Shown piece by piece: positions 3,435 to 62,294 of a stretch of DNA of 64,000 bases; the stretch's first letter is position 1, and each line of letters begins with the position of its first letter. The stretch covers positions 372,001 through 436,000 of the forward strand of contig NZ_JAYKZX010000001.1 of NCBI RefSeq assembly GCF_035989265.1. The letters run 5' to 3'. Under the pieces are notes generated by a model, which was given only the letters and a program-made list of their open reading frames with translations, ran no database searches and was not told the origin of the DNA. The position numbers and the translations under genes are program-made. The DNA is from Sphingobium sp. HWE2-09. GTDB taxonomy: Bacteria > Pseudomonadota > Alphaproteobacteria > Sphingomonadales > Sphingomonadaceae.

Positions 3435-4486
3435 GCGCCGCCTTGCCCGCGCTGAGCCAGCGCTTCTTCACCGACCGGCTGTGCACGCAGTTGGAGGCGA
3501 GCCGTCACACGGTGGCGGGCTACCGCGACACGTTCCGGCTGCTGCTCCGATATGCGAGCGCGCAGCTTGGCAAGCCGCCGGTCAAGCTGACCGTCGAGGA
3601 CATTGATGTCGATCTGGTCGCCGACTTCCTCGTCCATACCGAGACGGCACGCGGCAACAGCGCGCGCAGCCGCAACACCCGGCTCGCCGCCCTCCGGTCG
3701 TTCTTCCGCTTCGTCGCGATGACCGACCCGACCTGGCTGCTGCACTGCCAGCGCGTGCTCGCGATGCCTAACAAGCGCTACGTGAAGCGCACGGTGACGT
3801 TCCTCGATGCTGACGAGATGGCCGCGTTGGTGGCAGCGCCGGATCGCTCGACATGGGCGGGACGGCGCGACCACGCGTTGCTCCTGCTCGCGGTCCAGAC
3901 CGGCCTTCGGGCATCCGAACTGGTCGGCCTCACGCGAGGCGATGTTGTGCTCGGGAGCGGCGCGCACATCCGCTGCTTGGGCACGGGCCGAAAGGAGCGC
4001 GCCACACCGCTTCGCCGTGATACCGCCAAGCTGCTGGCGACGTGGATCGGCGCCGATAAGGAGGAAAGCAGGCCGCTGTTCCCGTCGATCCGGGGCGAGC
4101 GGCTGAGCCGCGATGCGCTCGAACATCTGGTCCGCAAGCACTGCCTGACGGCTGCGCGGACATGCCCGAGCATTGGCGCGAAGCGGGTCACGCCACATAC
4201 GCTGCGCCACAGCAACGCAATGGACCTGCTGCATCACGGCGTTGATCCAGCGGTGATCGCACTCTGGCTTGGTCACGAGAACGTCGAGACCACCCAGATC
4301 TACATCCACGCCGACATGCGGATGAAGGAAAAGGCGCTCGCCCGCGTCGCTGCTCCGCCCACGCCGTCAGGCCGGTTCCGACCTGACGACCAACTCCTCG
4401 CGTTCCTGGAAGGGCTCCGATTATGCCGAACCGCCGCGCGGTCAAAGGCCAGAAAACTACCCTCAACCAGAGGCCGCGCGGCATAA
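3431..4486 (+). CDS. ritC: Tyrosine recombinase RitC of the RIT element
   Basis: 351 residues, starting in the ATGA overlap with ritB. It is the most XerC/D-like of the three: core-binding domain (SRHTVAGYRDTFRLLL), first arginine in TGLRASELVGL, HxxR as HTLRHSNAM, second histidine in WLGHENVET and tyrosine in QIYIHAD. The C-terminal 30 or so residues (basic, ending SKARKLPSTRGRAA) are encoded within the right terminal repeat, so protein and repeat evolve together there. It is probably required, with RitA and RitB, for movement of the element. Confidence 0.88.
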   Translation: MSAALPALSQRFFTDRLCTQLEASRHTVAGYRDTFRLLLRYASAQLGKPPVKLTVEDIDVDLVADFLVHTETARGNSARSRNTRLAALRSFFRFVAMTDPTWLLHCQRVLAMPNKRYVKRTVTFLDADEMAALVAAPDRSTWAGRRDHALLLLAVQTGLRASELVGLTRGDVVLGSGAHIRCLGTGRKERATPLRRDTAKLLATWIGADKEESRPLFPSIRGERLSRDALEHLVRKHCLTAARTCPSIGAKRVTPHTLRHSNAMDLLHHGVDPAVIALWLGHENVETTQIYIHADMRMKEKALARVAAPPTPSGRFRPDDQLLAFLEGLRLCRTAARSKARKLPSTRGRAA

Positions 4487-20168: not shown

Positions 20169-20809
20169 CCACCGCTCCTAAGCGCACTCTTAAGAGCGCA
20201 CTTAAGACCGCTCGCTCACCTCATCGGCAAGGCGGGCCTCGCCGGATGGGTACTGCCAACCGGAAGGAAATCTTCTCTGTCGGTCATGCGCTAAACCGTA
20301 AGCGCTGTTTCCCACTTTCAATTACCCACAAATGTTGCGGCTGACGTTAGCACCGATTTTGATGTCCATCAGGCGAGACCATCCTCTCCAGATGACGATG
20401 TTGCCAGGCGGCGGATCATGGGCTCGCGCAAGATAGCCTCCGAGCCGGGCGATTTGGGTTAGATAGTCGGAAAGGGTTCTGCCTGGCGGTTCATTCTTTC
20501 GGGAAGCTGCGAGGCGGTCGATCAGGGTAATTTCGACATCGGTCAGGATCAGCCGAGGCGATGCGTCAGGAGCAGCGCGATTGATCATGGTCATCCAAAA
20601 CAGGCGCCATGACAGAATGCAGAATATGGCGATCAGATTGGCGAGGCGTTCGGCGGTCCGCAGCCGCGCATCTTCGGCTCGGCAGCCAGATTTGAGTATC
20701 TTGTGGAAGAGTTCGATCTTCCAACGCTGAGCATACCAGTCGAGCTTTTCGATGGCTTCGTCAGGCGTCGTGAACCGCGCCGGATTTGCCGGAGGCGTTG
20801 GGTTGTGAG

Positions 20810-21715
20810 TCACGCTGCCATATCGATGTTGTCCGCGGCAGCATAATATTGATCTTCGGCTTCGGCAGGCGGGATGTTGCCGATAGGCTCCAGCAGCCGG
20901 CGATTGTTGAACCAGTCGACCCATTCGAGCGTGGCATACTCGACCGCTTCGAAGCTGCGCCACGGTCCTCGCCGGTGGATCACCTCGGCTTTGTAAAGGC
21001 CGTTGATCGTCTCAGCCAAAGCATTGTCGTAGCTGTCGCCGACGCTGCCGACAGACGGCTCGATCCCGGCTTCGGCGAGGCGCTCGGTGTATTTGATGGA
21101 CACGTATTGCGACCCGCGGTCGCTATGATGGATGAGGCCGCCCCGATGGGCCGGCCGTCGATCATAAAGCGCCTGTTCCAGCGCATCGAGGACGAAGCTT
21201 GCGTGCGCTGTCCTGCTGGCTCGCCAGCCTACAATCCGCCTGGCGTAGGTATCGATGATGAAAGCGACGTAAACGAAGCCGGCCCAGGTCGCGACATAGG
21301 TAAAGTCGGATACCCACAGCATGTTCGGCGCTGGCGCGTAGAACCTGCGGTTAACGTGATCGAGCGGGCAAGCTGCTGCCTTGTCGCTGATGGTCGTGCG
21401 CACTGGCTTGCCCCGGATCACTCCGGCCAAGCCCATCTCGCGCATCAGCCGGGCGACCGTACAGCGGGCGACGGGCACGCCCTCCCGCATCATCTGCCGC
21501 CACACCTTGCGCACGCCGTAGACCGCGAAGTTCTCGGCGAACACGCGCGCGATCTCCGGCTTGAGGGCCGCATCCCGCCGCGCCCGCGCCGACAAGCGTG
21601 TCGGATCCTGTCGCTGCGCGACGCGCTCGTGATAAGTGGATGGGGCGATCGGCAGGACGCGGCAGATCGGCTCGACCCCATAGGCATCGCGGTGATCGTC
21701 AATGAACGCAATCAT
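20810..21715 (-). CDS. IS3-family transposase OrfB
   Basis: 301 residues with the HTH_21 segment ([10 protein letters not shown]) and a complete rve/DDE integrase core: the first Asp in [13 protein letters not shown], the second in [13 protein letters not shown], the Glu in [14 protein letters not shown]. It is normally produced as an OrfAB fusion by -1 frameshifting; orfA ends in overlap with its start at 21712-21715, in the frame relation expected. Confidence 0.93.
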
Positions 21716-22038
21716 CGCCGAAACGGGCGGTCGAGCTCCGCCTGAGCAAAATATGCCGATGCCTTGCGGAGAATCTCATTGGCCTGCCGCAGTTCGCGAA
21801 CCTCGCGCTCCAGCGCCTTCACCCTGTCGGCAATTTCGGCTGGGACACCCGCCCGCTTACCGCTGTCGACCTCAGCCTTCTTCACCCACTCATGCAGCGT
21901 CGGCGGTGAGCAGCCGATCTTCTCGGCAATCGATACCACCGCGGCCCAGCGCGATGGGTAATCCCGCTCGTGATCCAGCACCATCCGGATCGCTCGCTCG
22001 CGTACTTCCGGCGCAAATTTGTTCGTCGTCTTGCTCAT
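21712..22038 (-). CDS. IS3-family transposase OrfA
   Basis: 108 residues: helix-turn-helix ([40 protein letters not shown]) and a leucine-zipper-like C-terminal helix ([20 protein letters not shown]). It binds the element's ends and, through frameshifting near its 3' end, supplies the N-terminus of OrfAB. Confidence 0.92.
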
Positions 22039-23174
22039 ATCGGCTCCATCTACTCAAGAGTTGGAGCCTCCGACAAACCCGGCGCGGTTCATCGTTACCG
22101 GCAGATCGGTGATGAGCCGCCAGTCGATTGGGGGGCGCCCTTCAGGCGTTCCACTCTCACGGGCATGCAAGATGGTCAGGCTGAGGGAAGGATAGCGCTT
22201 TTGCTTTCCGATCGGCGGCAAAACTTGGATGCGCCTATAGCGCAGTTCGATGTCGGCATGATCGTCTTTGCCAATGGTGATCCGATGCGTGCCTTGCACG
22301 GTGGTTTCGCTCATTTCGTCGGCGATCGTATGGCCACCGTCGCCAGCCAGACGATCGACACAGGTGCGGACCAAGAAATGCGTGCCGAGCATCTGTGTTT
22401 CGCAGAAAAACTCGTAAATGTCGTTCTCCCGATCGCCAATATGAACCAGTCGCTCTGGATCGCCCAGCAGGGTGGTCGATTGACGCATATTCTCGAGCCA
22501 GCGGTAGCTCTCCTTCTCCTCGATCGGTACGCGCGTGGGATTGATCCGCCGCTTCAACGCGTTGGCACCCTTGAACTTGGTACGGGTCCAGAATTTCGCC
22601 GCTGTCAGACCCAGTGGCAATCCCTCAGTCGTGATCGCAAGGCTGGAGTGCATGAGCAGGCCGCAGACCGTATGAAGCCGAAGCCGACCATTCTCATCAC
22701 GCCGGCTCGGCGCAAGCCCGATGGCGCCAATCGTTTCAGGATTGCGCCTTTGATAGGAGAATTCGGTGGTGTCCTGTAAAACTAGGATGAACCCCTCAAG
22801 CGCCGTCGCTCGTGCCCGTGTCGCCTGGAAATGCCCGGCAAGTATGTCTCCCTCGTTTACCGAGCCATTAGACAAAAAACGGTAGGCCGCCTTGGTATTG
22901 GCCCAGTCTTGGCACGCCATCGGTATCGGTGCGCCAATCGCTCCTGACATCTGCTTAAGCATCGTTCGAAGCCGTTCGCCCAATCGCTTATCACGAAAGG
23001 CGGCGGGATCGACTTCCCCGTCAGCCCATCCTGCCGCATCGAAAACGGATGTCTCCACGTTGCACCCCGCCAACCGCTTCAGGTGCCAGGGAATGAATCA
23101 TGCTTGATTCCAGGCGAGCAATGCTCATGCGGCCAACGGAATCACGCTCGCGACCACTTGTGGGTAATTGAAAG

Positions 23175-23183
23175 GATTAATCC
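23175..23183. repeat. Split target duplication, inner half
   Basis: GATTAATCC immediately after the terminal repeat of IS copy 1. Its reverse complement is found immediately after copy 2 at 53219-53227; see the inverted block entry. Confidence 0.75.
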
Positions 23184-23210
23184 AGCCACTGAAGGTCTGA
23201 TCGTGGACGG

Positions 23211-23660
23211 CTACGAAGGCCCATGTTCAATCTGCACTTCGCCTTCTTCTTCCCCATCCCAGTAATGCACATTTTTTGCATGCACTTGGATAAGCACCAG
23301 CCCCGGCGTATCCACGCCTTGCTCGAACCAGTGATCCAGATCTTTGGACCAATGCTCGGCAAATGCGCCCTTGTCGCGGATGAGCTCGGCCTGGCCCTCG
23401 ATGGCAATGAAGAAAGGGCGGACACCGAAAATGCCGGCTTTACCCTGGAAACTGAGACCCACTTGCGAGTCTCGTTCGATGTCGGCCACCATCTGCGTGT
23501 CTTGCCTCGTGAAGAACCAGCTATTGCCATCATAATCGACCTCGCGATTATTGCTCATCGGCCGAGCGCCAATCGCTCCGCCTGGGCTGTGCGTGGATAA
23601 CATCGTGAAATCGATGTCCTTCATTTTCTCGGCGAGATCGCTCAAGTTCCTCTTCGACAT
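23211..23660 (-). CDS. Pyridoxamine-5'-phosphate-oxidase-fold protein, general stress type
   Basis: 149 residues of the COG3871 group (split-barrel flavin fold): DLAEKMKDIDFTMLSTHSPG, GARPMSNNREVDYDGNSWFF, MVADIERDSQVGLSFQG, FIAIEGQAELIRDKGAFAEH. Family members bind FMN or F420 in the cytoplasm and are induced by general stress; substrates are mostly unknown. A one-mismatch EcfG promoter (GGACC-N16-CGTT) lies 31 bp upstream, in keeping with stress control. Confidence 0.85.
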   Translation of the reverse strand: MSKRNLSDLAEKMKDIDFTMLSTHSPGGAIGARPMSNNREVDYDGNSWFFTRQDTQMVADIERDSQVGLSFQGKAGIFGVRPFFIAIEGQAELIRDKGAFAEHWSKDLDHWFEQGVDTPGLVLIQVHAKNVHYWDGEEEGEVQIEHGPS

Positions 23661-23690
23661 TCGGGGCTCTCCTGCTTGGCTCGCCCTTTA

Positions 23691-23715
23691 AACGTGTACC
23701 GTTTGTAATCGGTCC
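23691..23715 (-). promoter_or_regulatory. EcfG-type promoter with one mismatch (PPOX gene)
   Basis: On the minus strand GGACC, 16 bases, CGTT, 31 bp before the start at 23660. The sphingomonad/alphaproteobacterial EcfG consensus is GGAAC-N16/17-CGTT, so one of nine positions differs. Confidence 0.5.
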
Positions 23716-24028
23716 CGGAGACTCTTTGTTAAATTGCTTTCCCCCTTCGCCATTGGAATGCCTAGCGTAGGGTCGCGCGACAACGGGTAAAATATAGTGA
23801 AGGCTAGGTGTCATCGCGTTCGACCGTTGCTTGCCAGCAACGGTTGTCACGTCCGTCGCCTATGGCTGACGGCGGTTACTAACGACGCAAATTTCGGCAC
23901 TGAAAGATTGGATGGCGCGACATCGGTGCCGTGAAGCACCGCATAATTGATCCCGATCAAGACGTTTTTCTGGGAACGACACCACCCCTTCCGGTCTTTT
24001 AATGCCAAGCAAATCGGAAGGTAATCTC

Positions 24029-24916
24029 GTGGCTACTCAGCTCGAACATAGCGGTTCGCAATTTCTGCGCCAGGAATTTCAGGAAGAACTTAGTAGGTGG
24101 AACAAGCAGCGGCTCGCGCCGGCATTCCCCACGGAGGCGACAGCCGCGCAATTCATTAATGACCGTAATATGCTCCGGCTGGAGCATGCATTTGTCGAGG
24201 AGTTGCGCGCGCTTGTCGTAGAGGAGGCTTCTGAAGCACCCACCACGCCTGATGCGTTTGTCGCCTGGTTCGAGGATCTGAAAGCGACCGGACCTGGGCA
24301 ACATGATCGCCTTTTCCCATGGCTGGCGGACCAGGCCGACAGAGACGAACTACGTTGGTTCCTGTCGCAGGAAGCCGCGGGTGAGGCAGGGTTCGATGAT
24401 CTTGTAGCACTGACGCAGGTCAAACTGCCCGCTCGGGCGAAGCTTGAGCTTGCCCGCAACTATTGGGACGAGATGGGACGCGGAAATCCTAAGGGGATGC
24501 ATGGTCCTATGCTCAATCAGCTAGTCGACATTCTCGACCTCGATACGCAGATTGAACACACGGTTTGGGAAAGCCTCGCGCTTGCCAACGCCATGACGGC
24601 CATGGCCACATCGCGAAGCTATGCCTGGCATAGCGTCGGCGCTCTTGGCGTCATTGAGCTGACCGCGCCTGATCGCTCGGCGCATACGGCGAAAGCCTTG
24701 CGACGGATCGGATTGAGTGAATCCGAGCGGCGTTACTTCGATCTGCACGCCGTTCTTGACATCAAGCATAGCCGGGACTGGAACGATGAAGCGATCCGAC
24801 CGCTCGTCGAGGAAGACCCGCGTCGTGCGACAGCAATGGCAGAAGGTGCGCTTATCCGGCTTCATTGTGGGGCCCGATGTTTTGAGAGATATCGCGCGCA
24901 TCTGGGGCTGGAGTGA
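24029..24916 (+). CDS. Iron-containing redox enzyme family protein (haem-oxygenase-like fold)
   Basis: About 295 residues from GTG 24029, which has GGAAGG 8 bp before it; ATG 24002 is also in frame but lacks a ribosome-binding site. It resembles the haem-oxygenase-like di-iron proteins (PF14518 type): FRQEFQEELSRWN-like start, LRLEHAFVEELRALVVEEA, EAAGEAGFDDLVALTQ, YWDEMGRGNPKGMHGPMLNQ, LDIKHSRDWNDEAIRPL. The Glu and His residues in those helices are likely metal ligands. Such enzymes oxidise small or fatty-acid-like substrates; the substrate here is unknown. A response regulator gene follows after 4 bp, suggesting a joint role in stress signalling. Confidence 0.78.
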   Translation: MATQLEHSGSQFLRQEFQEELSRWNKQRLAPAFPTEATAAQFINDRNMLRLEHAFVEELRALVVEEASEAPTTPDAFVAWFEDLKATGPGQHDRLFPWLADQADRDELRWFLSQEAAGEAGFDDLVALTQVKLPARAKLELARNYWDEMGRGNPKGMHGPMLNQLVDILDLDTQIEHTVWESLALANAMTAMATSRSYAWHSVGALGVIELTAPDRSAHTAKALRRIGLSESERRYFDLHAVLDIKHSRDWNDEAIRPLVEEDPRRATAMAEGALIRLHCGARCFERYRAHLGLE

Positions 24917-24920
24917 GACG

Positions 24921-25268
24921 ATGGTACGCCCCATATTGCTAGTTGAAGACGACCCGGACGTTGCCGCTTTGATCTCCGACATGCTGGAGAGGGCTGACTA
25001 TGTCGTCGATGGCCCTTATGCCACGTTGTCCGATGGTATGGAGGCACTTGCCAAATCGATGCCAGCGGCAGCCGTACTGGACATTCGCCTCAGGCGTGGG
25101 GACATTGACCTGCTGGCCGATGATCTGGACCTGTATGATATTCCCTACCTGTTTTGCTCGGGCGCATTTGATCATCCGGTTGTCAAGCGGCATCCCGACG
25201 CCCCGCTGGTCCTTAAACCCGCGCTGGGACGACGCCTGATATCAACTCTTCAGTCGATGTTGCACTGA
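24921..25268 (+). CDS. Stand-alone response regulator receiver protein
   Basis: 115 residues, one REC domain and nothing else. The acidic pair is Asp10/Asp11 (LLVEDDPDV), the phosphoacceptor Asp54 (AVLDIRLRRGD), the Ser in FCSGAF and the Lys in LVLKPALG complete the set. Start ATG 24921 follows GGAGTGAG, 4 bp after the upstream stop. Lacking an output domain, it probably works as a phosphate sink or by protein contact, possibly with the PAS kinase at 33297 in the same island. Confidence 0.85.
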   Translation: MVRPILLVEDDPDVAALISDMLERADYVVDGPYATLSDGMEALAKSMPAAAVLDIRLRRGDIDLLADDLDLYDIPYLFCSGAFDHPVVKRHPDAPLVLKPALGRRLISTLQSMLH

Positions 25269-51682: not shown

Positions 51683-53218
51683 CTTTCAATTACCCACAAG
51701 TGGTCGCGAGCGTGATTCCGTTGGCCGCATGAGCATTGCTCGCCTGGAATCAAGCATGATTCATTCCCTGGCACCTGAAGCGGTTGGCGGGGTGCAACGT
51801 GGAGACATCCGTTTTCGATGCGGCAGGATGGGCTGACGGGGAAGTCGATCCCGCCGCCTTTCGTGATAAGCGATTGGGCGAACGGCTTCGAACGATGCTT
51901 AAGCAGATGTCAGGAGCGATTGGCGCACCGATACCGATGGCGTGCCAAGACTGGGCCAATACCAAGGCGGCCTACCGTTTTTTGTCTAATGGCTCGGTAA
52001 ACGAGGGAGACATACTTGCCGGGCATTTCCAGGCGACACGGGCACGAGCGACGGCGCTTGAGGGGTTCATCCTAGTTTTACAGGACACCACCGAATTCTC
52101 CTATCAAAGGCGCAATCCTGAAACGATTGGCGCCATCGGGCTTGCGCCGAGCCGGCGTGATGAGAATGGTCGGCTTCGGCTTCATACGGTCTGCGGCCTG
52201 CTCATGCACTCCAGCCTTGCGATCACGACTGAGGGATTGCCACTGGGTCTGACAGCGGCGAAATTCTGGACCCGTACCAAGTTCAAGGGTGCCAACGCGT
52301 TGAAGCGGCGGATCAATCCCACGCGCGTACCGATCGAGGAGAAGGAGAGCTACCGCTGGCTCGAGAATATGCGTCAATCGACCACCCTGCTGGGCGATCC
52401 AGAGCGACTGGTTCATATTGGCGATCGGGAGAACGACATTTACGAGTTTTTCTGCGAAACACAGATGCTCGGCACGCATTTCTTGGTCCGCACCTGTGTC
52501 GATCGTCTGGCTGGCGACGGTGGCCATACGATCGCCGACGAAATGAGCGAAACCACCGTGCAAGGCACGCATCGGATCACCATTGGCAAAGACGATCATG
52601 CCGACATCGAACTGCGCTATAGGCGCATCCAAGTTTTGCCGCCGATCGGAAAGCAAAAGCGCTATCCTTCCCTCAGCCTGACCATCTTGCATGCCCGTGA
52701 GAGTGGAACGCCTGAAGGGCGCCCCCCAATCGACTGGCGGCTCATCACCGATCTGCCGGTAACGACGCCTGACGAAGCCATCGAAAAGCTCGACTGGTAT
52801 GCTCAGCGTTGGAAGATCGAACTCTTCCACAAGATACTCAAATCTGGCTGCCGAGCCGAAGATGCGCGGCTGCGGACCGCCGAACGCCTCGCCAATCTGA
52901 TCGCCATATTCTGCATTCTGTCATGGCGCCTGTTTTGGATGACCATGATCAATCGCGCTGCTCCTGACGCATCGCCTCGGCTGATCCTGACCGATGTCGA
53001 AATTACCCTGATCGACCGCCTCGCAGCTTCCCGAAAGAATGAACCGCCAGGCAGAACCCTTTCCGACTATCTAACCCAAATCGCCCGGCTCGGAGGCTAT
53101 CTTGCGCGAGCCCATGATCCGCCGCCTGGCAACATCGTCATCTGGAGAGGATGGTCTCGCCTGATGGACATCAAAATCGGTGCTAACGTCAGCCGCAACA
53201 TTTGTGGGTAATTGAAAG
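51683..53218 (+). mobile_element. IS50/Tn5-like IS4-family element, copy 2, intact
   Basis: 1536 bp, ends CTTTCAATTACCCACAA (51683 on) and its inverse (to 53218). Orientation is opposite to copy 1. The right flank GGATTAATC is matched only at the inner flank of copy 1, not at its own left flank (GCGAGCAG). Confidence 0.93.
51784..53211 (+). CDS. IS50-like IS4-family transposase
   Basis: 475 residues; TTG 51784 or GTG 51799 are possible starts. It resembles Tn5 transposase throughout: N-terminal DPAAFRDKRLGERLRTMLKQ, AYRFLSNGSVNEGDILAGHF, catalytic Asp in VLQDTTEFSYQRR, Asp in VHIGDRENDIYEFF, Glu in RWKIELFHKILKSGCRAEDA (Y-R-K/E signature region), and ARLGGYLARAHDPPPGN. Intact and probably active, able to mobilise copy 1 ends as well. 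Confidence 0.92.
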   Translation: MAGCNVETSVFDAAGWADGEVDPAAFRDKRLGERLRTMLKQMSGAIGAPIPMACQDWANTKAAYRFLSNGSVNEGDILAGHFQATRARATALEGFILVLQDTTEFSYQRRNPETIGAIGLAPSRRDENGRLRLHTVCGLLMHSSLAITTEGLPLGLTAAKFWTRTKFKGANALKRRINPTRVPIEEKESYRWLENMRQSTTLLGDPERLVHIGDRENDIYEFFCETQMLGTHFLVRTCVDRLAGDGGHTIADEMSETTVQGTHRITIGKDDHADIELRYRRIQVLPPIGKQKRYPSLSLTILHARESGTPEGRPPIDWRLITDLPVTTPDEAIEKLDWYAQRWKIELFHKILKSGCRAEDARLRTAERLANLIAIFCILSWRLFWMTMINRAAPDASPRLILTDVEITLIDRLAASRKNEPPGRTLSDYLTQIARLGGYLARAHDPPPGNIVIWRGWSRLMDIKIGANVSRNICG

Positions 53219-53316: not shown

Positions 53317-54474
53317 ATGAACCCTTTGCCCCTGTCCCCAGATCGGTCGATCATAATCGTCAGCGACCGCATCGAATATTCCGAAGAAAAGCTGGCATCG
53401 ACCATCCATACTAATCTGCAAACCACCGACTATTTGCCTCAGCCTGTTATCGAAGGAGGCTATCTGGAGCGTTTGCCGCTTTCCTGTATCACAGGCGGCA
53501 TAGTGGAACGAGCAGAGGTCTGGCATCATGTGATCGGGGGTGGTCAATCTCTTCAACGGGGCAGCGCACATCTTACTTATCGCGGAGTTCCTGCTGACGG
53601 TCCTGAAAGCCCTGTAAAGTCCAGAGCGATGTTGGAGTTGTTTCAACGTCATGGCGCGCCGCATATATTGGTGGTATTTGGCCTGGGCATCGACGCTACT
53701 CTGCTCGATGCATGCGCCAACGGTGTGCGGATTTATAATTCTATCGATGCGCCGTCGCTGCGCGTACCCGAAGATGTCAGTGCGCGGTTCGATATCGTCC
53801 TGACGGGGGCACAATGGCAGTCCGATGAAGTGGCAGCGCGCCATCCCGGCATGACGACGGCCATCCTGCCAGTCGGCCCCGAATTTGCGGGCGTCGACCA
53901 GTTCCGGCCGCTTGGCATGCCCAAGGACTATGACCTCATCTATGTCGCGGCGGCGCAGCCCTACAAGCGCCACGACCTGCTGTTCGACGCGCTGGAGCAA
54001 TGCCCCCACGACGTCCGCGCCCTGTGCGTGTTCGGCTATGGTGAAATGGCCGACGCCTTGCGTGCCGATGCCGCCGCGCGGGGCCTGTCCGTCGATTTCG
54101 TCGGTCCGCCGGGCGTCGCATTCGTCGAGGTAAACCGTCTTATGAACCGTGCGAAATTCGGCGTCGTCTGCGGGCGAGACGACGGCGCGCCCGCGATCCT
54201 GACCGAATATATGCTGGCGGGTCTTCCAGTGCTCGCCAATGCGGAGTTGGTCTGCGGCCGCCAATATATCCAGCCCGAAACCGGAATGCTTGCCTCCCCC
54301 GATAATTTCGCCGGGGCGATCATGACGATGCGCGAAGAATACGCGGCCTTCGCTCCGCGCGATGCCGTGCTCGCACAATGGACATGGCACCACAGCATCG
54401 CAAAATTGCAGCCCCTGATTGTGCAGGCCCAGCGGCGCAAGCGGCGCTCCCACCAACATGGATCAGTGCGATAA
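53317..54474 (+). CDS. Glycosyltransferase, GT4-like
   Basis: 385 residues. The C-terminal nucleotide-sugar domain is recognisable (DLIYVAAAQPYKRHDLLFDA, LCVFGYGEMADALRADAAAR, FGVVCGRDDGAPAILTEYML, AGLPVLANAELVCGR with the E-x7-E region). The N-terminal acceptor domain is divergent (GGQSLQRGSAHLTYRGVPAD). A cytoplasmic, membrane-associated sugar transferase by family. First gene of the glycan cluster, 72 bp before the mutase fusion. It starts 98 bp after the IS copy, which may have separated it from its native promoter. Confidence 0.8.
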   Translation: MNPLPLSPDRSIIIVSDRIEYSEEKLASTIHTNLQTTDYLPQPVIEGGYLERLPLSCITGGIVERAEVWHHVIGGGQSLQRGSAHLTYRGVPADGPESPVKSRAMLELFQRHGAPHILVVFGLGIDATLLDACANGVRIYNSIDAPSLRVPEDVSARFDIVLTGAQWQSDEVAARHPGMTTAILPVGPEFAGVDQFRPLGMPKDYDLIYVAAAQPYKRHDLLFDALEQCPHDVRALCVFGYGEMADALRADAAARGLSVDFVGPPGVAFVEVNRLMNRAKFGVVCGRDDGAPAILTEYMLAGLPVLANAELVCGRQYIQPETGMLASPDNFAGAIMTMREEYAAFAPRDAVLAQWTWHHSIAKLQPLIVQAQRRKRRSHQHGSVR

Positions 54475-54546
54475 AGCAGCTTGGCTGCGGACATAATATG
54501 CATCCCCGAGCATTTATTGCCAGCTTATGACAAGGGGACGAACACG

Positions 54547-56898
54547 ATGCAGGGTTCCAGTTCAACACATGCCACGACCTTGTCCGAGCTCAGCATCTCA
54601 GTTGATCCCTCCCTTAACCCGCTAATCTGTTTTTCCCACCTGCGATGGGATTTCGTCACGCAGCGGCCCCAGCATCTGATGCGCCGTTTTGCGACTGAAC
54701 GGCGGGTCTTTTTCTGGGAAGAGGCGATCTTGTGCGATCATCCTTTGCCCTATCTGGAATATCATCCCTTTCCGGCCGACAATGTCATCGCCCTGCGCCC
54801 GCGCGTGCCGCATTGGTGGGATGATGAGGCCAGGCAGACGGCTTTGCGCGAGCTGCTCGACACACTGGTCGCGACATCAGTCCCTAGCAAACCCATATTA
54901 TGGTTCTATACGCCAATGATGCTGGGTTTTGCCGGCCATGTGAAGGCGCATGCCATCATCTATGACTGTATGGACGAACTGTCCGCATTCCGCTTCGCCG
55001 ATCCGCAGCTGGTCGCACAGGAAGCCTCATTGATGAAGAGGGCTGATGTCGTCTTCACCGGCGGTTACAGCCTGTATGAAGCGAAACGGGGCAGTCACGC
55101 CGCCATCCATCCCTTCCCGTCGGCCGTCGATACGCTGCATTTTGCCGCTGCGCGCGGAAACGTTATCGAGCCAGCCGATCAGGCGAGCATCGCAGGCCCG
55201 CGCCTGGGCTTCTACGGCGTGATCGACGAACGTATCGACCTGGGACTGATAGGCGCCGTGGCGCGCGCCAGACCGGACTGGCACATCGTCATGATCGGCC
55301 CGGTCGTGAAGATCGATCCTGCCGACCTTCCCCGCCATCCCAATATCCATTGGCTGGGCAGTCGCGACTATGCCGACCTGCCCGCTTATCTGTCGGGCTG
55401 GAACGTTGCGCTAATGCCCTTTGCGATCAATGACGCAACCCGCTTCATCAGTCCGACCAAGACGCCGGAATATCTGGCCGCTGGGCGCCCCGTAGTGTCC
55501 ACGCCCATTGTCGATGTGCAGCGTCACTATGGCGCGGTCCAGGGCGTCGCAATCGCCGACGGAACTGACGCCTTTGTCGCCGCGTGCGAAGCCGCACTCG
55601 CACTCCCAGTTGACGGCGCTTGGCGAGACGAAACGGACGCGCTGCTCGCAACGACATCCTGGGACATGACCTTTGACGGCATGAAGGCGCAAATGGCAGC
55701 AGTCTCGGTCAAGCCCGCTGCGCCGACCCTGGTCGTCGCCAATGACTATGGTACTAGCCCTGCCGTTCACCCCGCCGCACGCCGGCCCGACTACGACGTC
55801 CTCGTCGTCGGTGCGGGCTTTGCAGGCGCGGTGCTGGCCGAGCGTCTTGCTGCCGGTTCGGGCAAGCGCGTGCTGGTGATCGACCGCCGTCCCCATGTCG
55901 CGGGCAATGCCTATGATCATCGAGATGCGGCGGGCATTCTGGTCCACCGCTACGGCCCGCACATCTTCCACACCAACAGCGACGATGTGTTCGCCTATTT
56001 GTCACGCTTTACCCAGTGGCGGCCCTATGAACATCGCGTGCTCGCCAGTGTGGGCGCAAAGCTGGTGCCGATGCCGATCAACCGCACGACGCTCAACAGC
56101 CTCTATAATCTGAACTTGCAGGACGAAGCCGCCGCTGCTGCCTTTCTCGCCGACCGTGCCGAACCGCGCGCATTGCACACGTCCGAAGACGTGGTCGTCG
56201 CCGCCATCGGGCAGGAACTTTATGAAACATTTTTCCGCGGCTACACCCACAAGCAGTGGGGCCTGGACCCATCGCAACTCGACAAGTCGGTAACTGCGCG
56301 CGTGCCGACCCGCACCAGCACCGACGACCGCTATTTCCTCGACAAGCATCAGACGATGCCGCTGCACGGCTATACCGCAATGTTCGAAGCGATGCTCGAC
56401 CATCCCAACATCACCGTCCAGACCGGGACCGATTATCGCGATGTCGATGTACGCGCCGCGCATACCGTCTTTACCGGGCCGGTCGATGAATACTTCAATC
56501 GCCGCTTTGGCCCCTTGCCCTATCGAAGCTTGCATTTCGAGCACCAGACCCGTGATTTTGCGACGTTCCAGCCCGTCGCCACGGTCAACTATCCCGACGA
56601 GCAGACACCCTATACCCGCATCACCGAATATAAGCACCTGACCGGGCAGCAGCATGCCCGCACCAGCATAACCTATGAATATCCACAGGATGAAGGTGAC
56701 CCCTATTATCCTATTCCCCGTGACGAGAACCAGGCTCTATATCGACGTTACAAGGCGCTGGCCGATGCGTTGCCAGACGTCAGCTTCGTCGGCCGCCTTG
56801 CAACCTACAAATATTATAATATGGACCAGGTCGTGGGCCAAGCGCTCGCCACTTATCGCCGGCTGGCTATAAAGCTGGGCCAGGAGTCGGTCGCTTGA
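54547..56898 (+). CDS. glf: Glycosyltransferase fused to UDP-galactopyranose mutase
   Basis: 783 residues from ATG 54547 with AAGGGG upstream. Residues 1-395 are a GT4-type transferase (FSHLRWDFVTQRPQHLMRRF, RLGFYGVIDERIDLGLIGAV, FISPTKTPEYLAAGRPVVST). From about 414 a full-length UDP-galactopyranose mutase follows: FAD loop VLVVGAGFAGAVLAERLA, RPHVAGNAYDHRDAAGILVH, YGPHIFHTN, HKQWGLDPSQL, HLTGQQHARTSITYEYPQDE, and TYKYYNMDQVVGQAL. The mutase makes UDP-galactofuranose, so the attached transferase probably uses it or its direct product. A Pro/Ala-rich linker joins the parts. Overlaps the next gene by TTGA. Confidence 0.9.
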   Translation: MQGSSSTHATTLSELSISVDPSLNPLICFSHLRWDFVTQRPQHLMRRFATERRVFFWEEAILCDHPLPYLEYHPFPADNVIALRPRVPHWWDDEARQTALRELLDTLVATSVPSKPILWFYTPMMLGFAGHVKAHAIIYDCMDELSAFRFADPQLVAQEASLMKRADVVFTGGYSLYEAKRGSHAAIHPFPSAVDTLHFAAARGNVIEPADQASIAGPRLGFYGVIDERIDLGLIGAVARARPDWHIVMIGPVVKIDPADLPRHPNIHWLGSRDYADLPAYLSGWNVALMPFAINDATRFISPTKTPEYLAAGRPVVSTPIVDVQRHYGAVQGVAIADGTDAFVAACEAALALPVDGAWRDETDALLATTSWDMTFDGMKAQMAAVSVKPAAPTLVVANDYGTSPAVHPAARRPDYDVLVVGAGFAGAVLAERLAAGSGKRVLVIDRRPHVAGNAYDHRDAAGILVHRYGPHIFHTNSDDVFAYLSRFTQWRPYEHRVLASVGAKLVPMPINRTTLNSLYNLNLQDEAAAAAFLADRAEPRALHTSEDVVVAAIGQELYETFFRGYTHKQWGLDPSQLDKSVTARVPTRTSTDDRYFLDKHQTMPLHGYTAMFEAMLDHPNITVQTGTDYRDVDVRAAHTVFTGPVDEYFNRRFGPLPYRSLHFEHQTRDFATFQPVATVNYPDEQTPYTRITEYKHLTGQQHARTSITYEYPQDEGDPYYPIPRDENQALYRRYKALADALPDVSFVGRLATYKYYNMDQVVGQALATYRRLAIKLGQESVA

Positions 56899-58982
56899 GC
56901 AGCGGCAGGAGGCGTATCTGCCTGGTGACCGAAAGCCCCGATCCGTCAGGCGTCGGCGAACATATGATGACGCTGGCACAGGGATTGGCCGCCGATAACG
57001 ATGTGACGATCGGGGCGCCGCGCGCCACCCGACTGATCGAGCGCGCCCGGGCGGCGGGTTTTTCGGTGAAAGCGGTTGATGCCTCGAACCCGGCCGATCT
57101 TGACCGCTGGTTCGCGCGCAGTCAGCCCGATATCGTCCATGTCCATGCGGGCATCGGATGGGAAGGACATGTCACGGCGCGCGCGGCGAAGGGCCGGGCC
57201 AGCGGCGTTATCCGTACCGAACATCTGCCCTATCTGCTGACGGATGAAGCCCAGCGCGCCGATCATGGCGAGGGGCTGACTGCCGTCGATCGCGTCATCT
57301 GCGTATCTGGCGCCGTCGCGCAAAGCTATATCGAAGCAGGCGTCGCGCAGCATCTGTTGGCAACGATCGCCAATGGCGTGCGCTATCGCGCGCCGTCGCG
57401 CGATCGGGCCACCCTGCGTGGCGAATGGCGGCTGGATGACGCGTCGGTCCTGCTGATGGCAGCACGGTTCGCGCCGCAGAAGGACCATGCACTGCTGCTC
57501 CAGGCGCTGCCGACCATTCTTGCCGCACATCCGGACTGCATCGTCCTGCTCGCTGGCGAGGGGCCGTTGCTATGGACTGTCGCTAGGCAGATCGCCGCGC
57601 TGGGCCTGGCCGGATCGGTGCGGATGTTGGGCAGCCGCCAGGATATGCCCGATCTGATGGCCGCGGCCGACCTGTTGCTGCTTCCTTCACGCTTCGAAGG
57701 GCTTTCGCTGGTCGCGCTCGAAGCGATGGCGGCGGGGCTGCCCGTCGTCGCCACCGACGCGCCGGGTAACGCCGAACTGCTGGAAGATGGGGTGAGCGGC
57801 TGGCTTGCGCCTGCTGGGGATGCTCTGGCTTATGCTGCACTCGTGATCGATGCCCTGTCCGATCGCGAACGGCTTGGCCAGGTAGCTAGCGCTGCGCGCG
57901 ATCGACAAGCGAACCGCTTCGACGCCGACCGCATGATCGCACAGACTGCCGCCCTTTATGAAAGCCCGTGCGACGCGCGTAGACCGCAAGGAAACCGAAT
58001 GACCCGGATAGGCTTTATCGGCGCGGGCGGCATCGCCCATCGCCATTTCGGCGTACTCGAACAGTTTGACGATGTGTCGATCGTCGCCGTCACCGATGTC
58101 GATGCCGCACGCGCTGGCGATGCGGCCGCACGCTTTGGCGCGCGTGCGTTTACCGACATGGAGGACATGTTACGCACAGTGGAACTGGACGCGCTCTATA
58201 TCTGCGTGCCGCCCTTCGCCCATGGCGCGCCAGAACGTGCGGCGATCGCCCATGGCATCCCCTTTTTCGTCGAAAAGCCTGTCGCGCTCGACATCGATAC
58301 GGCCGACGAGATCGCGGCCCGCGTCGATGCCGCGGGGTTGATCACGGCGGTCGGCTATCATTGGCGCTATCTCGATACCGTGGACGAAGTGCGCGGTCTG
58401 CTCGCGCATAATCCAGCGCGGCTGATGTCGGGCTACTGGCTCGATTCCACGCCGCCGCCGATCTGGTGGTGGCATGAGGACCAGTCGGGCGGGCAGATGG
58501 TCGAACAGACTACCCACTTGCTTGATCTCGCGCGTTATCTTTCGGGGAATGTGGTGCGCGCCTATGGCTTAAACGGACATACGCCACGCGACGCCTTCCC
58601 CGGCCTTGATGTGCCGACGGTCAGCAGCGCCAGCCTGTTGTTCGCCAATGGTGCAGTCGCAAATTTCGCTTCGACCTGCTTGCTCGGATGGAGCCATCGC
58701 GTCGGGCTGCATCTGTTCGGCGACAATCTTGCGATCGAGATCACCGACCGCGACCTGATGGTCGACGTCGGACGCGGTCGTCCGGTGCGCGGCGCGCATG
58801 GCGACCCGGTATGGGCGGAGGATCGCGACTTCATCGACGCGGTGCAGGGCAAGGAAAATCATATTCGTTGCCCCTATGCCGATGCGGTCGAAACGCATCG
58901 GCTGGCGCTCGCCGTCGTAGAATCCGCGCGCTCGGGCGTTGCCGTCTCCATCGCACCTGCACGGGAGCCGGCGCATGTCTGA
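56895..58982 (+). CDS. Glycosyltransferase fused to Gfo/Idh/MocA oxidoreductase
   Basis: 695 residues from TTG 56895 overlapping the mutase stop. Residues 1-360 are a GT4 transferase (LVTESPDPSGVGEHMMTLAQ, IVHVHAGIGWEGHVTARAA, MAARFAPQKDHALLLQALP, LLPSRFEGLSLVALEAMAAG). From Met369 a Gfo/Idh/MocA enzyme starts: MTRIGFIGAGGIAHRHFGVL, ICVPPFAHGAPERAAIAHGI, FFVEKPVALD (Lys of the EKP motif), GGQMVEQTTHLLDLARYL. The second domain is preceded by AAGGAAA and could also be made separately from ATG 57999. It probably oxidises or epimerises a sugar that the cluster transfers. Confidence 0.88.
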   Translation: MSSGRRRICLVTESPDPSGVGEHMMTLAQGLAADNDVTIGAPRATRLIERARAAGFSVKAVDASNPADLDRWFARSQPDIVHVHAGIGWEGHVTARAAKGRASGVIRTEHLPYLLTDEAQRADHGEGLTAVDRVICVSGAVAQSYIEAGVAQHLLATIANGVRYRAPSRDRATLRGEWRLDDASVLLMAARFAPQKDHALLLQALPTILAAHPDCIVLLAGEGPLLWTVARQIAALGLAGSVRMLGSRQDMPDLMAAADLLLLPSRFEGLSLVALEAMAAGLPVVATDAPGNAELLEDGVSGWLAPAGDALAYAALVIDALSDRERLGQVASAARDRQANRFDADRMIAQTAALYESPCDARRPQGNRMTRIGFIGAGGIAHRHFGVLEQFDDVSIVAVTDVDAARAGDAAARFGARAFTDMEDMLRTVELDALYICVPPFAHGAPERAAIAHGIPFFVEKPVALDIDTADEIAARVDAAGLITAVGYHWRYLDTVDEVRGLLAHNPARLMSGYWLDSTPPPIWWWHEDQSGGQMVEQTTHLLDLARYLSGNVVRAYGLNGHTPRDAFPGLDVPTVSSASLLFANGAVANFASTCLLGWSHRVGLHLFGDNLAIEITDRDLMVDVGRGRPVRGAHGDPVWAEDRDFIDAVQGKENHIRCPYADAVETHRLALAVVESARSGVAVSIAPAREPAHV

Positions 58983-60075
58983 ATGGCGCCATATCCGATC
59001 GCTCGGCGTCGAATGTCCCAACCAAGCCTATCTCCATGGCTATGACGAAGGGCCACCGGAGCCGGGGCGCGTTCGTCTCGAAACGCTTTACACCGGTTTT
59101 TCCGCCGGCACCGAGTTGACCTTCGTCAAGAACAGCAATCCCTATCTTCATGCGCGATGGGACGCAGGGCGCGGCGTGTTCGTACAGGGCGAACCGCAGC
59201 AGCATTATCCGGTGCCGTTCCTGGGCTATATGGAAAGTGCCCGCGTCATCGAAAGCGGTGTCGATGACTATATACCGGGCGACGTCGTCGGTACGGTCTA
59301 TGGCCACAAGACCGGCCATACTGCAGACCCGTTCCACGATGTGCTCACCAAGCTGCCTCCCGGTATCGATCCGATCCTGGGCATCTATGTGGGGCAGATG
59401 GGGCCTATCGCCGCCAACGGCATCCTGCATGCCGATTCTGAATTGCTCGGCCCTCATGCGGCCAGGTTCGGTGCGGGCCTAGCCGGGCGGCCGGTGCTAG
59501 TGATGGGCGCAGGGATCGTTGGTTTGTTCGTTGCCCTGTTTGCGCAAGCTGCAGGCGCGAGTGAAGTCTTGATCGCCGATCCCTCCGAATTTCGGCGTCT
59601 GCGCGCCGCTTGCCTTGGCCTGACGCCCATGACCCAGGACCAGGCCTGGAACCACGCCAAGGCGCGCTGGTTGCATGGCGGAGACGATCGTGGTGCCGAT
59701 GTCGTGTTTCAGACCCGCGCCGATAGCGCATCGCTGCACGCGGCGATGCAAGCGCTGCGCCCGCAGGGCACGGTGATCGACCTCGCCTTCTACCAGGGCG
59801 GAGCGGATCGATTACGCTTGGGTGAGGAGTTTCATCATAACGGCCTCAACCTGCGCTGTGCGCAGATCGGCCGCGTGCCGCGCGGCATGGCCTTTGCCTG
59901 GGACAAGCGGAGGCTGGCGGCCGAGACGATCAAGTTGCTTGCCGCGCGTGGGGATGAGATCAAGGCGCAGCTCATCACCCATGTCGTGCCGATCGAGGAC
60001 GCCCCCGTTTTCCTTCGCCATCTCATCGTGCAACGTCCCGAATTCCTCCAGATCGTCTTCAAAGTGGTCGATTGA
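58975..60075 (+). CDS. Medium-chain dehydrogenase/reductase family protein
   Basis: 366 residues from ATG 58975, overlapping the previous gene by 8 bp. GroES-like N-terminal part (YTGFSAGTELTFVKNSNPYL, VPFLGYMESARVIESGVDDY, PGDVVGTVYGHKTGH) and Rossmann domain (GRPVLVMGAGIVGLFVALFA, VLIADPSEFRRLRAACLGL). The catalytic zinc ligand pattern of alcohol dehydrogenases is not evident. Placed between two glycosyltransferase fusions, it probably acts on a sugar or on an aglycone linked to it. Confidence 0.82.
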   Translation: MSEWRHIRSLGVECPNQAYLHGYDEGPPEPGRVRLETLYTGFSAGTELTFVKNSNPYLHARWDAGRGVFVQGEPQQHYPVPFLGYMESARVIESGVDDYIPGDVVGTVYGHKTGHTADPFHDVLTKLPPGIDPILGIYVGQMGPIAANGILHADSELLGPHAARFGAGLAGRPVLVMGAGIVGLFVALFAQAAGASEVLIADPSEFRRLRAACLGLTPMTQDQAWNHAKARWLHGGDDRGADVVFQTRADSASLHAAMQALRPQGTVIDLAFYQGGADRLRLGEEFHHNGLNLRCAQIGRVPRGMAFAWDKRRLAAETIKLLAARGDEIKAQLITHVVPIEDAPVFLRHLIVQRPEFLQIVFKVVD

Positions 60076-62294
60076 GCGTGGTCATCGACCGACCTGTCCG
60101 CATCCTTTTCGTCTTCGCTTGGCTGGTCGTCGGCGGGGAGGAGACCGAGGTGCGCTTGTTGGCGCAGGCGCTCGATCGGCGGCGCTACGCGATCGACGTC
60201 GTCGCTTGTTTTCGTAAGCCCGGCATGCCAGAACAAACCCATCGCCAGCTCGAAGCGATAGGGGTGCCGGTCGATCGTACGCCCTATCATCTCTCCTTCG
60301 ATGAAACCGTCGCCTATCTTGCCGGCCTGATCCCCGCCTATGACATCGTCATATCATGCCAGAATGTCGCCGACATCTATCCCGCGCTGGAACGGCTACA
60401 CCTGCGCCCGCCGCTGATCGAGCATGGTGGGCTAGTGTCCGAAGCGCTTGCCGGGCCGAAGCATCTGACCACCCGCTATGTCGGCGTATGTACCTCGATC
60501 CGCGACGCTGCCGCGACAAGGATGCCGGGTCGCGAGGCCGATGCGCTCATGATCCCGTCGATGGTCGACACCGCCGCCTTCGATCTTGCGTTACGCACGC
60601 CGACCCGCGCTGCGCTAGGCATTGCCGACGGAGCGCCGTTGATCGGCTGGCTCGGCCGGCTCGACCCCAAGAAGCGGGTCGAGGATTTCATCGTCGCCGC
60701 CGCAATGGTGCATCGCAAACGACCCGACGCGCGCTTCCTCGTGATTGGCGGGCCTGACGCGTTTCTGCCGAATTACGCCACTTCGCTGGGTGCGCAGGCG
60801 AGCGCTCTCGGACTTGATGGCGTGCTGACGTTTTTAGGCGACCGCGCCGACGTGCCGGCCCTGTTGTCGGCGCTCGACGTCTTCGTCTGGCTCTCGCGGG
60901 GCGAGGGTATGCCCCATGTCATCGCCGAAGCAGGTGCTGCGCGCCTGGCCGTCGTCGCCACCGCCGACAATGGCAGCATGGAGCAGATCGAGCATGGGCA
61001 TAGCGGCATTTTCGTACCGCATGAAGACCCGGTTGCCGTCGCCGCCGCCATCGGCCGATTGATCGGCGATCCGGCGCTCCGCCATCGTCTGGGCGCGGCG
61101 CTCAGGACCAAAGTCGATGCCGATTATGCGGTGGAAGTGGTAGCGCTGCAATGGACCGCTCTGTTCGACACGCTGGCGGTGCGCGAACCGCTGCCAGCGC
61201 CCGCGCTGTTTCACAGCTTCCTTATGGGCGGATTTGAATGCTCCACCCATCGCCGCGCCCATGACCGCAAACGCATTGATGTCATCGCCGCCACGCGCCA
61301 CGATGCGCTGGCGGAACAGGATTACCGGCTCCTTCAGGACTGTGGGATCAAGACCGTCCGCGATGGCCTGCGCTGGCATCTGATCGAGGCTGAGCCTGGT
61401 ATTTTCGACTGGTCGAGCCTGTCTTTGCAACTGACGGCTGCGCAGGCGAGCGGAACACAGGTCATCTGGGATTTACTCCATTATGGCTGGCCTGACGATA
61501 TTGATGTATGGACGCCCGCCTTCGTCACGCGCTTCGCCGCCTTCGCCGCCGCAGCCGCGCGTGTCGTGATGGCTTCGACGGTCGGCCAGCGTTTCTACAC
61601 ACCGGTGAACGAAATCTCGTTCTTGTCTTGGGGCGGCGGCGATGCGGCTTATCTCAATCCATTCGCCACAGCGCGGGGATACGAGCTTAAGGTCCAACTT
61701 GCGCGGGCATCCATCGCGGCAATGGATGCGATCCGCGCGGTTGATAGGACCGCGCGCTTCGTCCATCCCGAACCTGTGATCAATGTCGTCACCGATCCCG
61801 CCCGTCCTACCGATGCATCCCATGCGCAGGGTCATCGGCAGGCCCAGTTCCAGGCTTGGGATCTGATCGCTGGGCGGCTATGGCCGCAGATCGGTGGTAG
61901 ACCAGATCTCCTGGATATCATCGGCGTCAATTTCTATCACAATAATCAATGGATCCATGGTGGCCCGCCGATCGATGGCGCGCATGCGCTCTACAAGCCG
62001 TTCCACCGGATTCTGGCAGAAACATACGCTCGTTACGGCCGCCCGATCTTCATCGCCGAGACCGGCATAGAGGGCGATCCGCGCCCGACTTGGTTCGCAC
62101 ATATAATGGATGAAGTCCGCCTCGCTCGATCGCTTGGTATTCCGGTGGAGGGTATCTGCTTGTACCCGATCCTTGACCACCCGGGCTGGGACGATGACCG
62201 CCCATGTCCTAACGGCTTGATAGCCGATGACAGACGTCTTTATGCTCCTCTCGCCCTGGCGATGCGTGCCTTGGGGACCACCATCACCAAATAA
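60072..62294 (+). CDS. Glycosyltransferase fused to a clan GH-A glycosidase-like domain
   Basis: 740 residues from TTG 60072 overlapping the previous stop (GTG 60078 is an alternative). Residues 1-370 are a GT4 transferase (FAWLVVGGEETEVRLLAQAL, LIGWLGRLDPKKRVEDFIVA, FVWLSRGEGMPHVIAEAGAA). From about 376 a TIM-barrel glycosidase-like domain follows (FLMGGFECSTHRRAHDRKRI, DGLRWHLIEAEPGIFDWSSL, IWDLLHYGWPDDIDVWTP). The acid/base candidate is Glu514 (YTPVNEISF) and the nucleophile candidate Glu663 (FIAETGIEGD), as in GH1-like enzymes. Without a signal peptide it would be cytoplasmic, so trimming or transglycosylation of the product is possible. Confidence 0.85.
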   Translation: MSVVIDRPVRILFVFAWLVVGGEETEVRLLAQALDRRRYAIDVVACFRKPGMPEQTHRQLEAIGVPVDRTPYHLSFDETVAYLAGLIPAYDIVISCQNVADIYPALERLHLRPPLIEHGGLVSEALAGPKHLTTRYVGVCTSIRDAAATRMPGREADALMIPSMVDTAAFDLALRTPTRAALGIADGAPLIGWLGRLDPKKRVEDFIVAAAMVHRKRPDARFLVIGGPDAFLPNYATSLGAQASALGLDGVLTFLGDRADVPALLSALDVFVWLSRGEGMPHVIAEAGAARLAVVATADNGSMEQIEHGHSGIFVPHEDPVAVAAAIGRLIGDPALRHRLGAALRTKVDADYAVEVVALQWTALFDTLAVREPLPAPALFHSFLMGGFECSTHRRAHDRKRIDVIAATRHDALAEQDYRLLQDCGIKTVRDGLRWHLIEAEPGIFDWSSLSLQLTAAQASGTQVIWDLLHYGWPDDIDVWTPAFVTRFAAFAAAAARVVMASTVGQRFYTPVNEISFLSWGGGDAAYLNPFATARGYELKVQLARASIAAMDAIRAVDRTARFVHPEPVINVVTDPARPTDASHAQGHRQAQFQAWDLIAGRLWPQIGGRPDLLDIIGVNFYHNNQWIHGGPPIDGAHALYKPFHRILAETYARYGRPIFIAETGIEGDPRPTWFAHIMDEVRLARSLGIPVEGICLYPILDHPGWDDDRPCPNGLIADDRRLYAPLALAMRALGTTITK

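Follow-up and report, generated by a model that had tools for sequence, protein, structure and literature searches.

Galactofuranose (Galf) pathways are familiar mainly from mycobacteria, O-antigens, fungi and protozoa. Among enzymes with the fold of glycoside hydrolase family 1 (GH1), SFR2 and other plant transglycosidases transfer sugars rather than hydrolyse them, SFR2 acting in freezing stress. Here we describe a cluster of five overlapping or nearly touching genes (g1-g5) on the forward strand, at positions 53317-62294 of a 64,000-nucleotide stretch of Sphingobium sp. HWE2-09 (positions 372,001 to 436,000 of contig NZ_JAYKZX010000001.1, called the window below). Three of the genes encode two enzymes end to end, and these include a predicted UDP-galactopyranose mutase (UGM) behind one glycosyltransferase and a divergent GH1-like barrel behind another. 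We lean, somewhat more than evenly, towards reading the cluster as the elaborated alphaproteobacterial form of a small Galf glycoconjugate module. Comparison of related loci shows the core of this predicted module, a TuaH-like GT4 transferase, a UGM and the divergent GH1-like protein, to travel together in various fusions.

Each enzyme lies in or near a known family; their combination, with a GH1-like protein as the steady companion of a UGM, appears to be new. No description of a module of transferase, UGM and GH1 was found among the matches listed in the open-access literature, and neither galactopyranose nor glycosyltransferase terms were found in the main texts of PMC3892343, PMC3188799 and PMC6180224. 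A GH1 from Streptomyces griseus is the subject of PMC12369401.

Composition of the cluster

Matches to PF00534 or PF13692 above cut-off place g1, g2, g3 and g5 among the GT4 glycosyltransferases. We name the transferase domains GTa (g1), GTb (the TuaH-like domain of g2), GTc (the GT4 domain of g3) and GTd (that of g5), and we call the GH-A barrel of g5 GHA; positions are collected in Table 1. The initial annotation of this DNA, made from the letters alone, had described five coupled genes with three two-enzyme fusions, and the domain matches in g1-g5 bear this out.

The second half of g2 scored 258 bits against PF03275 and 365.2 bits against TIGR00031, whose equivalog cut-off is 303.75. It aligned end to end with solved UGMs, reaching 519.8 bits with chain 3hdq, which we take to be the Deinococcus radiodurans enzyme, and 280 bits with the next chain, 1wam. 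These matches argue that the domain is a UGM, as the initial annotation had proposed; unlike known UGMs, it sits behind a TuaH-like transferase, and it is the single UGM match in the window genome. For the transferase itself the best named family is TuaH of teichuronic acid biosynthesis (NF047676), at 84.8 bits and far below the cut-off of 550.

The oxidoreductase half of g3 resembles the Gfo/Idh inositol dehydrogenases, with 103 bits to the inositol 2-dehydrogenase model TIGR04380 (cut-off 355) and the EKP motif kept. Unlike these enzymes, it is joined to a glycosyltransferase and, in 16/80 related loci, to a dehydrogenase too. Because transferase, Gfo/Idh and dehydrogenase form one chain in those loci, the dehydrogenase-like g4 can be assigned to the g3 fusion. 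In g4 itself the nucleotide-binding half alone is recognised: PF00107 was the sole match at a threshold of E 1e-3, and the zinc-binding GroES-like half (PF08240) was not found. The best solved match to g4 spans residues 102-269.

The GH1-like barrel

GHA has a divergent GH1 fold, a (beta/alpha)8 barrel with 13-21% identity to solved GH1 chains in structural alignments, and the predicted model of full-length g5 has a pTM of 0.87. No Pfam model recognises the barrel in g5, and PF00232 gave no match to it at E 0.01; 16/44 of its relatives do match PF00232. The two candidate catalytic glutamates pointed out in the initial annotation are present throughout the family. The pair N513-E514 and E663 are kept in 105/105 alignment rows, both aligned to solved GH1 chains, and R430, H470, N513, Y622 and W706 are invariant in the same 105 rows. 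Besides the missing PF00232 match, GHA differs from GH1 beta-glycosidases in its linkage or fusion to transferases and in its sugar-binding residues. In GH1 the Trp and Glu of the stretch 'WSL..DNFEW' serve sugar binding; in GHA the stretch reads 'YPI..DHPGW', and Y and G take their places (Y698 in 104/105 rows, G705 in at least 90% of 44).

Fusions and gene orders among relatives

Loci were fetched with GHA from the contigs of one genome per species, and the best 80 of 214 matching places were analyzed for architecture with the eight window domains. A UGM lay in the same locus as GHA in 68/80 cases and a TuaH-like transferase in 72/80, some of the misses being contig ends. GTd and GHA were fused in 48/80 loci, and GTb and UGM also in 48/80, two of these (L018, L033) with a broken frame. 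The initial annotation had each fusion channel a sugar from its maker to its own transferase. This is unsupported as stated, because the constant partners of GHA are the TuaH-like transferase and the mutase, and not the transferase GTd to which it is joined; the identity of the mutase and the conservation of the fusions stand. Neither of the two outcomes that the initial annotation had named as refuting it was obtained, the fusions being widespread and the catalytic glutamates of the barrel being present.

The exact window order (GTa, GTb+UGM, GTc+Gfo, dehydrogenase, GTd+GHA) was found in 21/80 loci, including those of Sphingomonas, Sphingobium, Qipengyuania, Kaistia, Lichenifustis and Phyllobacterium. 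Another 15/80, from Aureimonas, Rhizobium and further Rhizobiales, have GTc, Gfo and dehydrogenase in one chain and otherwise keep this order. The same triple chain occurs in L048, making up the 16 one-chain loci, and on pSymA of Sinorhizobium meliloti. Shorter forms carry GTb, UGM and GHA as separate genes in that order (14/80: Pseudomonas, Stutzerimonas, Skermanella, Rhizobium wenxiniae, Chryseobacterium, another member of the Weeksellaceae, Sphingobacterium), or GTb+UGM followed by GHA (five loci, with Azospirillum, Geminicoccus and L051, which is labelled Kuenenia).

Other fusions join GHA to GTb in L067 (Acidobacteriota) and L107 (Comamonas), to GTc in L071 (Chloroflexota), and to an acyl-CoA-dehydrogenase-like enzyme in L105 (Deinococcus wulumuqiensis). 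Plasmid-borne single chains unite GHA, GTb and a PRK07208-like flavoprotein in Pantoea (L099:9992-13702, 1,236 residues) and Acinetobacter (L104:9992-13720, 1,242 residues). In L151 and L153 GHA and GTb are fused and the UGM is of another type, scoring 263 and 261 bits against that of the window. Since L099, L104 and L106 have the other flavoprotein and L151 and L153 the other UGM, the association seems to have persisted through an exchange of its mutase partner.

A tree of 88 GHA rows sets those with the GTd+GHA fusion apart from all others that carried a label, as a single group of 41 (support 100/99). L051, L055 and L057, unlabelled loci without the fusion, nest inside this group, so fission or loss of the fusion is likely there. 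Outside it fall L067, L071 and a group of L107, L099, L104 and L106, on long branches whose exact places are unsure.

Two further observations concern reading frames. L018, L033 and L093 encode the TuaH-like transferase part in two separate frames, as a pseudogene or by sequencing error. Immediately downstream of GTd+GHA, three Aureimonas loci have an extra open frame that weakly resembles the GH1-like domain, at 20-46 bits (L032:11126-12013, L038:11083-12006, L047:10237-12021).

Co-occurrence and spread

For a less biased sample we used 349 Pseudomonadota genomes drawn evenly, accepting GHA matches of E up to 1e-30. GHA was present in 12/349 and UGM in 41/349 genomes. UGM was found in 11/12 genomes with GHA and in 30/337 without it (one-sided Fisher p 1.7e-10, relatedness not modelled). 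The two lie within about 5.5 kb of each other in 10/12 genomes, and on different contigs in G264; a TuaH-like transferase adjoins or is fused to GHA in 11/12. Compared with the window's domain, the UGMs adjacent to GHA reach 519-588 bits, those of L151 and L153 excepted. From the 30 genomes with UGM alone 22 mutases were fetched, and 18 of them score 239-309 bits, the other four 461-562 bits.

Several phyla contain the TuaH-like transferase, UGM and GHA side by side, either unfused or fused in differing ways, and transfer of the module between lineages is likely. Within the window's family a GHA match above 200 bits was obtained in 12/149 genomes, and in 0/2 of the same-genus genomes there. 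On plasmids 123 records match GHA at E 1e-5; the lowest-scoring of these, at about 25% identity, probably represent ordinary GH1 enzymes.

Companion genes and promoters

An ATP-binding cassette (ABC) exporter directly follows GHA in 14/108 loci, at 641-1,294 bits to the one in L075, and in 5/12 of the evenly drawn GHA genomes, where the copy of L148 is split over two frames. All three exporters examined carry PF00664 and PF00005 in a single chain. The L075 exporter scored 383 bits to the MsbA-related TIGR02204, 361 to MsbA itself (TIGR02203) and 331 to the glucan exporter model, and it reaches none of the cut-offs of the NCBIfam families listed (25 of 188). This likeness concerns the gene beside GHA in relatives, whereas no exporter is visible in the window or its cluster. 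The initial annotation saw no flippase, polymerase or Wzx/Wzy gene in the window, and among relatives the incomplete gene tables of 12 annotated neighbourhoods name no Wzx/Wzy-type gene (flippase, polymerase, chain-length or export); the window was not searched for such genes with profiles.

Five loci of Bacteroidota, Acidobacteriota and Deinococcota have, near GHA, a trio of an acyl-CoA-dehydrogenase-like enzyme, a PIG-L deacetylase and a NodS-like methyltransferase. In L106 a GH2-type enzyme, galT and galK lie between the gene for transferase plus flavoprotein and GHA.

We scanned for the promoter motif of the general stress sigma factor EcfG (GGAAC-N-GTT, spacing 16-20 allowed) up to 300 bases upstream of the first cluster gene. 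It was found in 14/25 alphaproteobacterial loci outside Sphingomonadales and Aureimonas, and on the opposite strand in 1/25, against a background of 305/10,000 random 300-mers of the same loci. The 14/25 includes Azospirillum brasilense three times and L051, labelled a planctomycete, and becomes 11/22 without two repeats and L051. The motif occurred in 0/27 other loci; a looser first scan had given 18/79. A further 22 loci gave a mixed picture. One operon out of two in L146 is preceded by the motif, as are both in L150, a locus so similar to L103 from the first set that it hardly counts as independent, and both divergent operons of L011, from a member of the Sphingomonadaceae. No motif was seen in L147, L148, L149, L143-L145, L151-L153, L005, L007-L010, L012 and L013, and L003, L004 and L006 had no usable upstream stretch. 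Stress control is likely, on the motif counts, for part of the family. For the window's cluster no stress promoter was found: the window holds nine matches, one inside g4 and none close upstream of g1. In Sphingomonas melonis Fr1 an EcfG-dependent glycosyltransferase operon, #3505-3509, is on record (PMC6599016), and no mutase is among its named products.

History of the window

The cluster lies on a contig of 1,156,749 bases, the other contigs having 42,414 and 3,238,357. An insertion sequence ends 98 bases before g1, and a second copy, inverted and interrupted by other DNA, occupies 20315-23174; the nine bases GGATTAATC adjoin both copies. The cluster of Sphingobium sp. AS12 (L017), with 93.9% identity over 9,205 bases, has no insertion sequence there and directly follows DNA that sits inverted at window positions 23175-25147. 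The simplest reading is that a copy was inserted upstream of g1 and that about 28.5 kb of DNA between the copies was inverted. The displaced DNA holds the former neighbours of the cluster, of which the PF16242 protein is of a kind often named general stress protein 26.

Table 1. Positions of the cluster genes, candidate residues and neighbouring features in the window, and of the gene trio in related loci
Feature	Position	Strand	Matches and remarks
g1, lone GT4-type transferase (GTa), 385 aa	53317..54474	+	PF00534 46 bits, PF13692 40 bits
g2, TuaH-like transferase (GTb) + UGM	54547..56898	+	listed frame begins at TTG 54481
UGM domain of g2	55780..56895	+	TIGR00031 365 bits over 304; 519.8 bits to chain 3hdq
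g3, GT4 (GTc) + Gfo/Idh/MocA oxidoreductase	56895..58982	+	PF00534 124 bits, PF01408 86 bits; nearest solved chain 3cea, 64.7 bits
g4, medium-chain dehydrogenase-like protein (ZDH)	58975..60075	+	PF00107 41 bits
g5 first half, GT4 (GTd)	60072..61181	+	PF00534 100 bits; E-x7-E motif residues 278 and 286, conserved in alignment
g5 second half, divergent GH1-like barrel (GHA), to stop codon	61182..62294	+	
Codon of E514, candidate acid/base	61611..61613	+	105/105 rows; aligned to N-E of GH1
Codon of E663, candidate nucleophile	62058..62060	+	105/105 rows; aligned to E of GH1 'TENG'
Insertion sequence, outside cluster, next to likely promoter region	51683..53218	+	ends 98 bases before g1
Pyridoxamine-oxidase-like gene	23211..23660	-	PF16242; directly upstream of cluster in AS12
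Haem-oxygenase-like protein, former cluster neighbour	24002-24916	+	PF14518
Response-regulator match under cut-off, former cluster neighbour	24717-25268	+	PF00072
Trio loci of relatives	L094:11240-13735, L080:10965-13529, L084:2067-4595, L105:9833-15063, L095:2801-5376		in L105 first enzyme fused to GHA

Discussion

In the module as we picture it, UGM would make UDP-Galf, and the TuaH-like domain joined to it would place Galf, or the sugar that follows it, on a small acceptor, presumably in the cytoplasm. The GH1-like protein, working by a retaining two-glutamate mechanism, may then move a glycosyl unit as a transglycosidase or trim a wrong or surplus product. In the long form of the window three further GT4 domains and the Gfo/Idh-dehydrogenase pair could add sugars and oxidise, reduce or epimerise them, giving perhaps a tri- to pentasaccharide. 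Export of the product would fall, in many relatives, to an MsbA-like ABC protein, whose gene is not in the window's cluster, and EcfG probably controls the module in some alphaproteobacteria.

We put forward a more far-reaching version tentatively: a widespread, so far undescribed and partly stress-controlled pathway, scattered by horizontal transfer, to a Galf oligosaccharide or glycolipid, in which the GH1-fold enzyme acts as a dedicated transglycosidase and forms an assembly line with the GT4 transferases. Its extreme would be the single chain of about 1,240 residues in Pantoea and Acinetobacter, uniting GH1-like enzyme, transferase and mutase-like flavoprotein. Some phyla would add a modification by the trio of companion enzymes, which by analogy recalls the deacetylation and N-methylation of Nod factors.

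Several observations weigh against a Galf module of this kind. UGM is not always the partner of GHA: 12/80 loci show none, explained in part by contig ends, and the flavoprotein of the plasmid loci L099, L104 and L106 is PF01593/PRK07208-like and not PF03275, so that Galf is doubtful there. The TuaH-like transferase occurs without UGM in L048, L055, L057 and L076, and also in the long cluster of plasmid locus L097. In the even sample, G321 (L149) has GHA with neither UGM nor TuaH-like transferase. Conversely, the four UGMs of the module type (461-562 bits) come from genomes that gave no GHA match at E 1e-30, namely L123 (G050), L131 (G470), L136 (G260) and L139 (G356); the one in G050 is fused to a TuaH-like transferase and the one in G470 adjoins one. 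A close copy of the exporter was not found in the window genome, where the best ABC protein scores 284 bits at 34%. The EcfG motif occurred in 0/21 Sphingomonadales, the window's own kind, and in 0/11 Aureimonas loci. To our knowledge, no activity is known for any member of the module.

The role of the barrel admits other explanations. It could be a recycling or editing hydrolase that removes surplus or wrong Galf glycoside in the cell and is dispensable for building, which we consider possible, though the less probable case. All residues of a retaining catalytic set are conserved, enzymes related in fold act as beta-glycoside hydrolases, and the galT and galK beside GHA in L106 could return free galactose to UDP-Gal; on the other side, the GH1 sugar-binding Trp and Glu are replaced, and the steady linkage to transferases, with repeated fusion to them, fits a building step at least equally well. 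That the barrel is an inactive scaffold, binding the growing glycan or holding the transferases together, is improbable. Changed sugar-binding residues and the joining to other enzymes in several orders would suit it, but the invariance of both glutamates and of the further residues named above goes beyond the needs of a scaffold.

Other alternatives concern the product and the locus as a whole. A soluble oligosaccharide with no lipid attached, for instance an osmoprotectant of the periplasm that is exported in the manner of cyclic glucans, differs from the module we favour in its product alone. The exporter's score to the glucan model, beside that to the MsbA-related one and like it far below cut-off, and the stress-type promoters in part of the family suit such a product, but they fit a glycolipid equally, and we hold it to be conceivable without preferring it. 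It is unlikely, in our view, that the cluster simply belongs to a standard O-antigen or exopolysaccharide locus that holds fusions by chance. GT4 domains, UGM and sugar oxidoreductases are common in such loci, and the window genome has three initiating sugar transferases, but the one on the cluster's contig (C1:34784-35329) lies about 390 kb from it, the 12 annotated neighbourhoods, with their incomplete gene tables, name no Wzx/Wzy-type genes, and many replicons carry the core with no other polysaccharide genes. Fusions that arose as sequencing, assembly or lost-stop-codon accidents of this strain are next to impossible, and we reject them. Split frames in L018 and L033 show that errors in single records occur, but no support for an accident was found here: 48/80 loci share the fusions, the fused frames contain no stop, and the cluster is 93.9% identical to that of AS12.

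If the Galf module that we favour is real, common bacteria of plants and soil would be making a glycoconjugate that has so far gone unrecognised, by means of a compact set of one mutase, one transferase and one GH1-like protein. This set is present in Pseudomonas, Sphingomonas, rhizobia, Azospirillum, Chryseobacterium and Deinococcus, often on plasmids. Its differing fusions and swapped mutase types would point to which enzymes must meet, and the module would offer a clean test of the GH1 fold as a dedicated builder of bacterial glycans.

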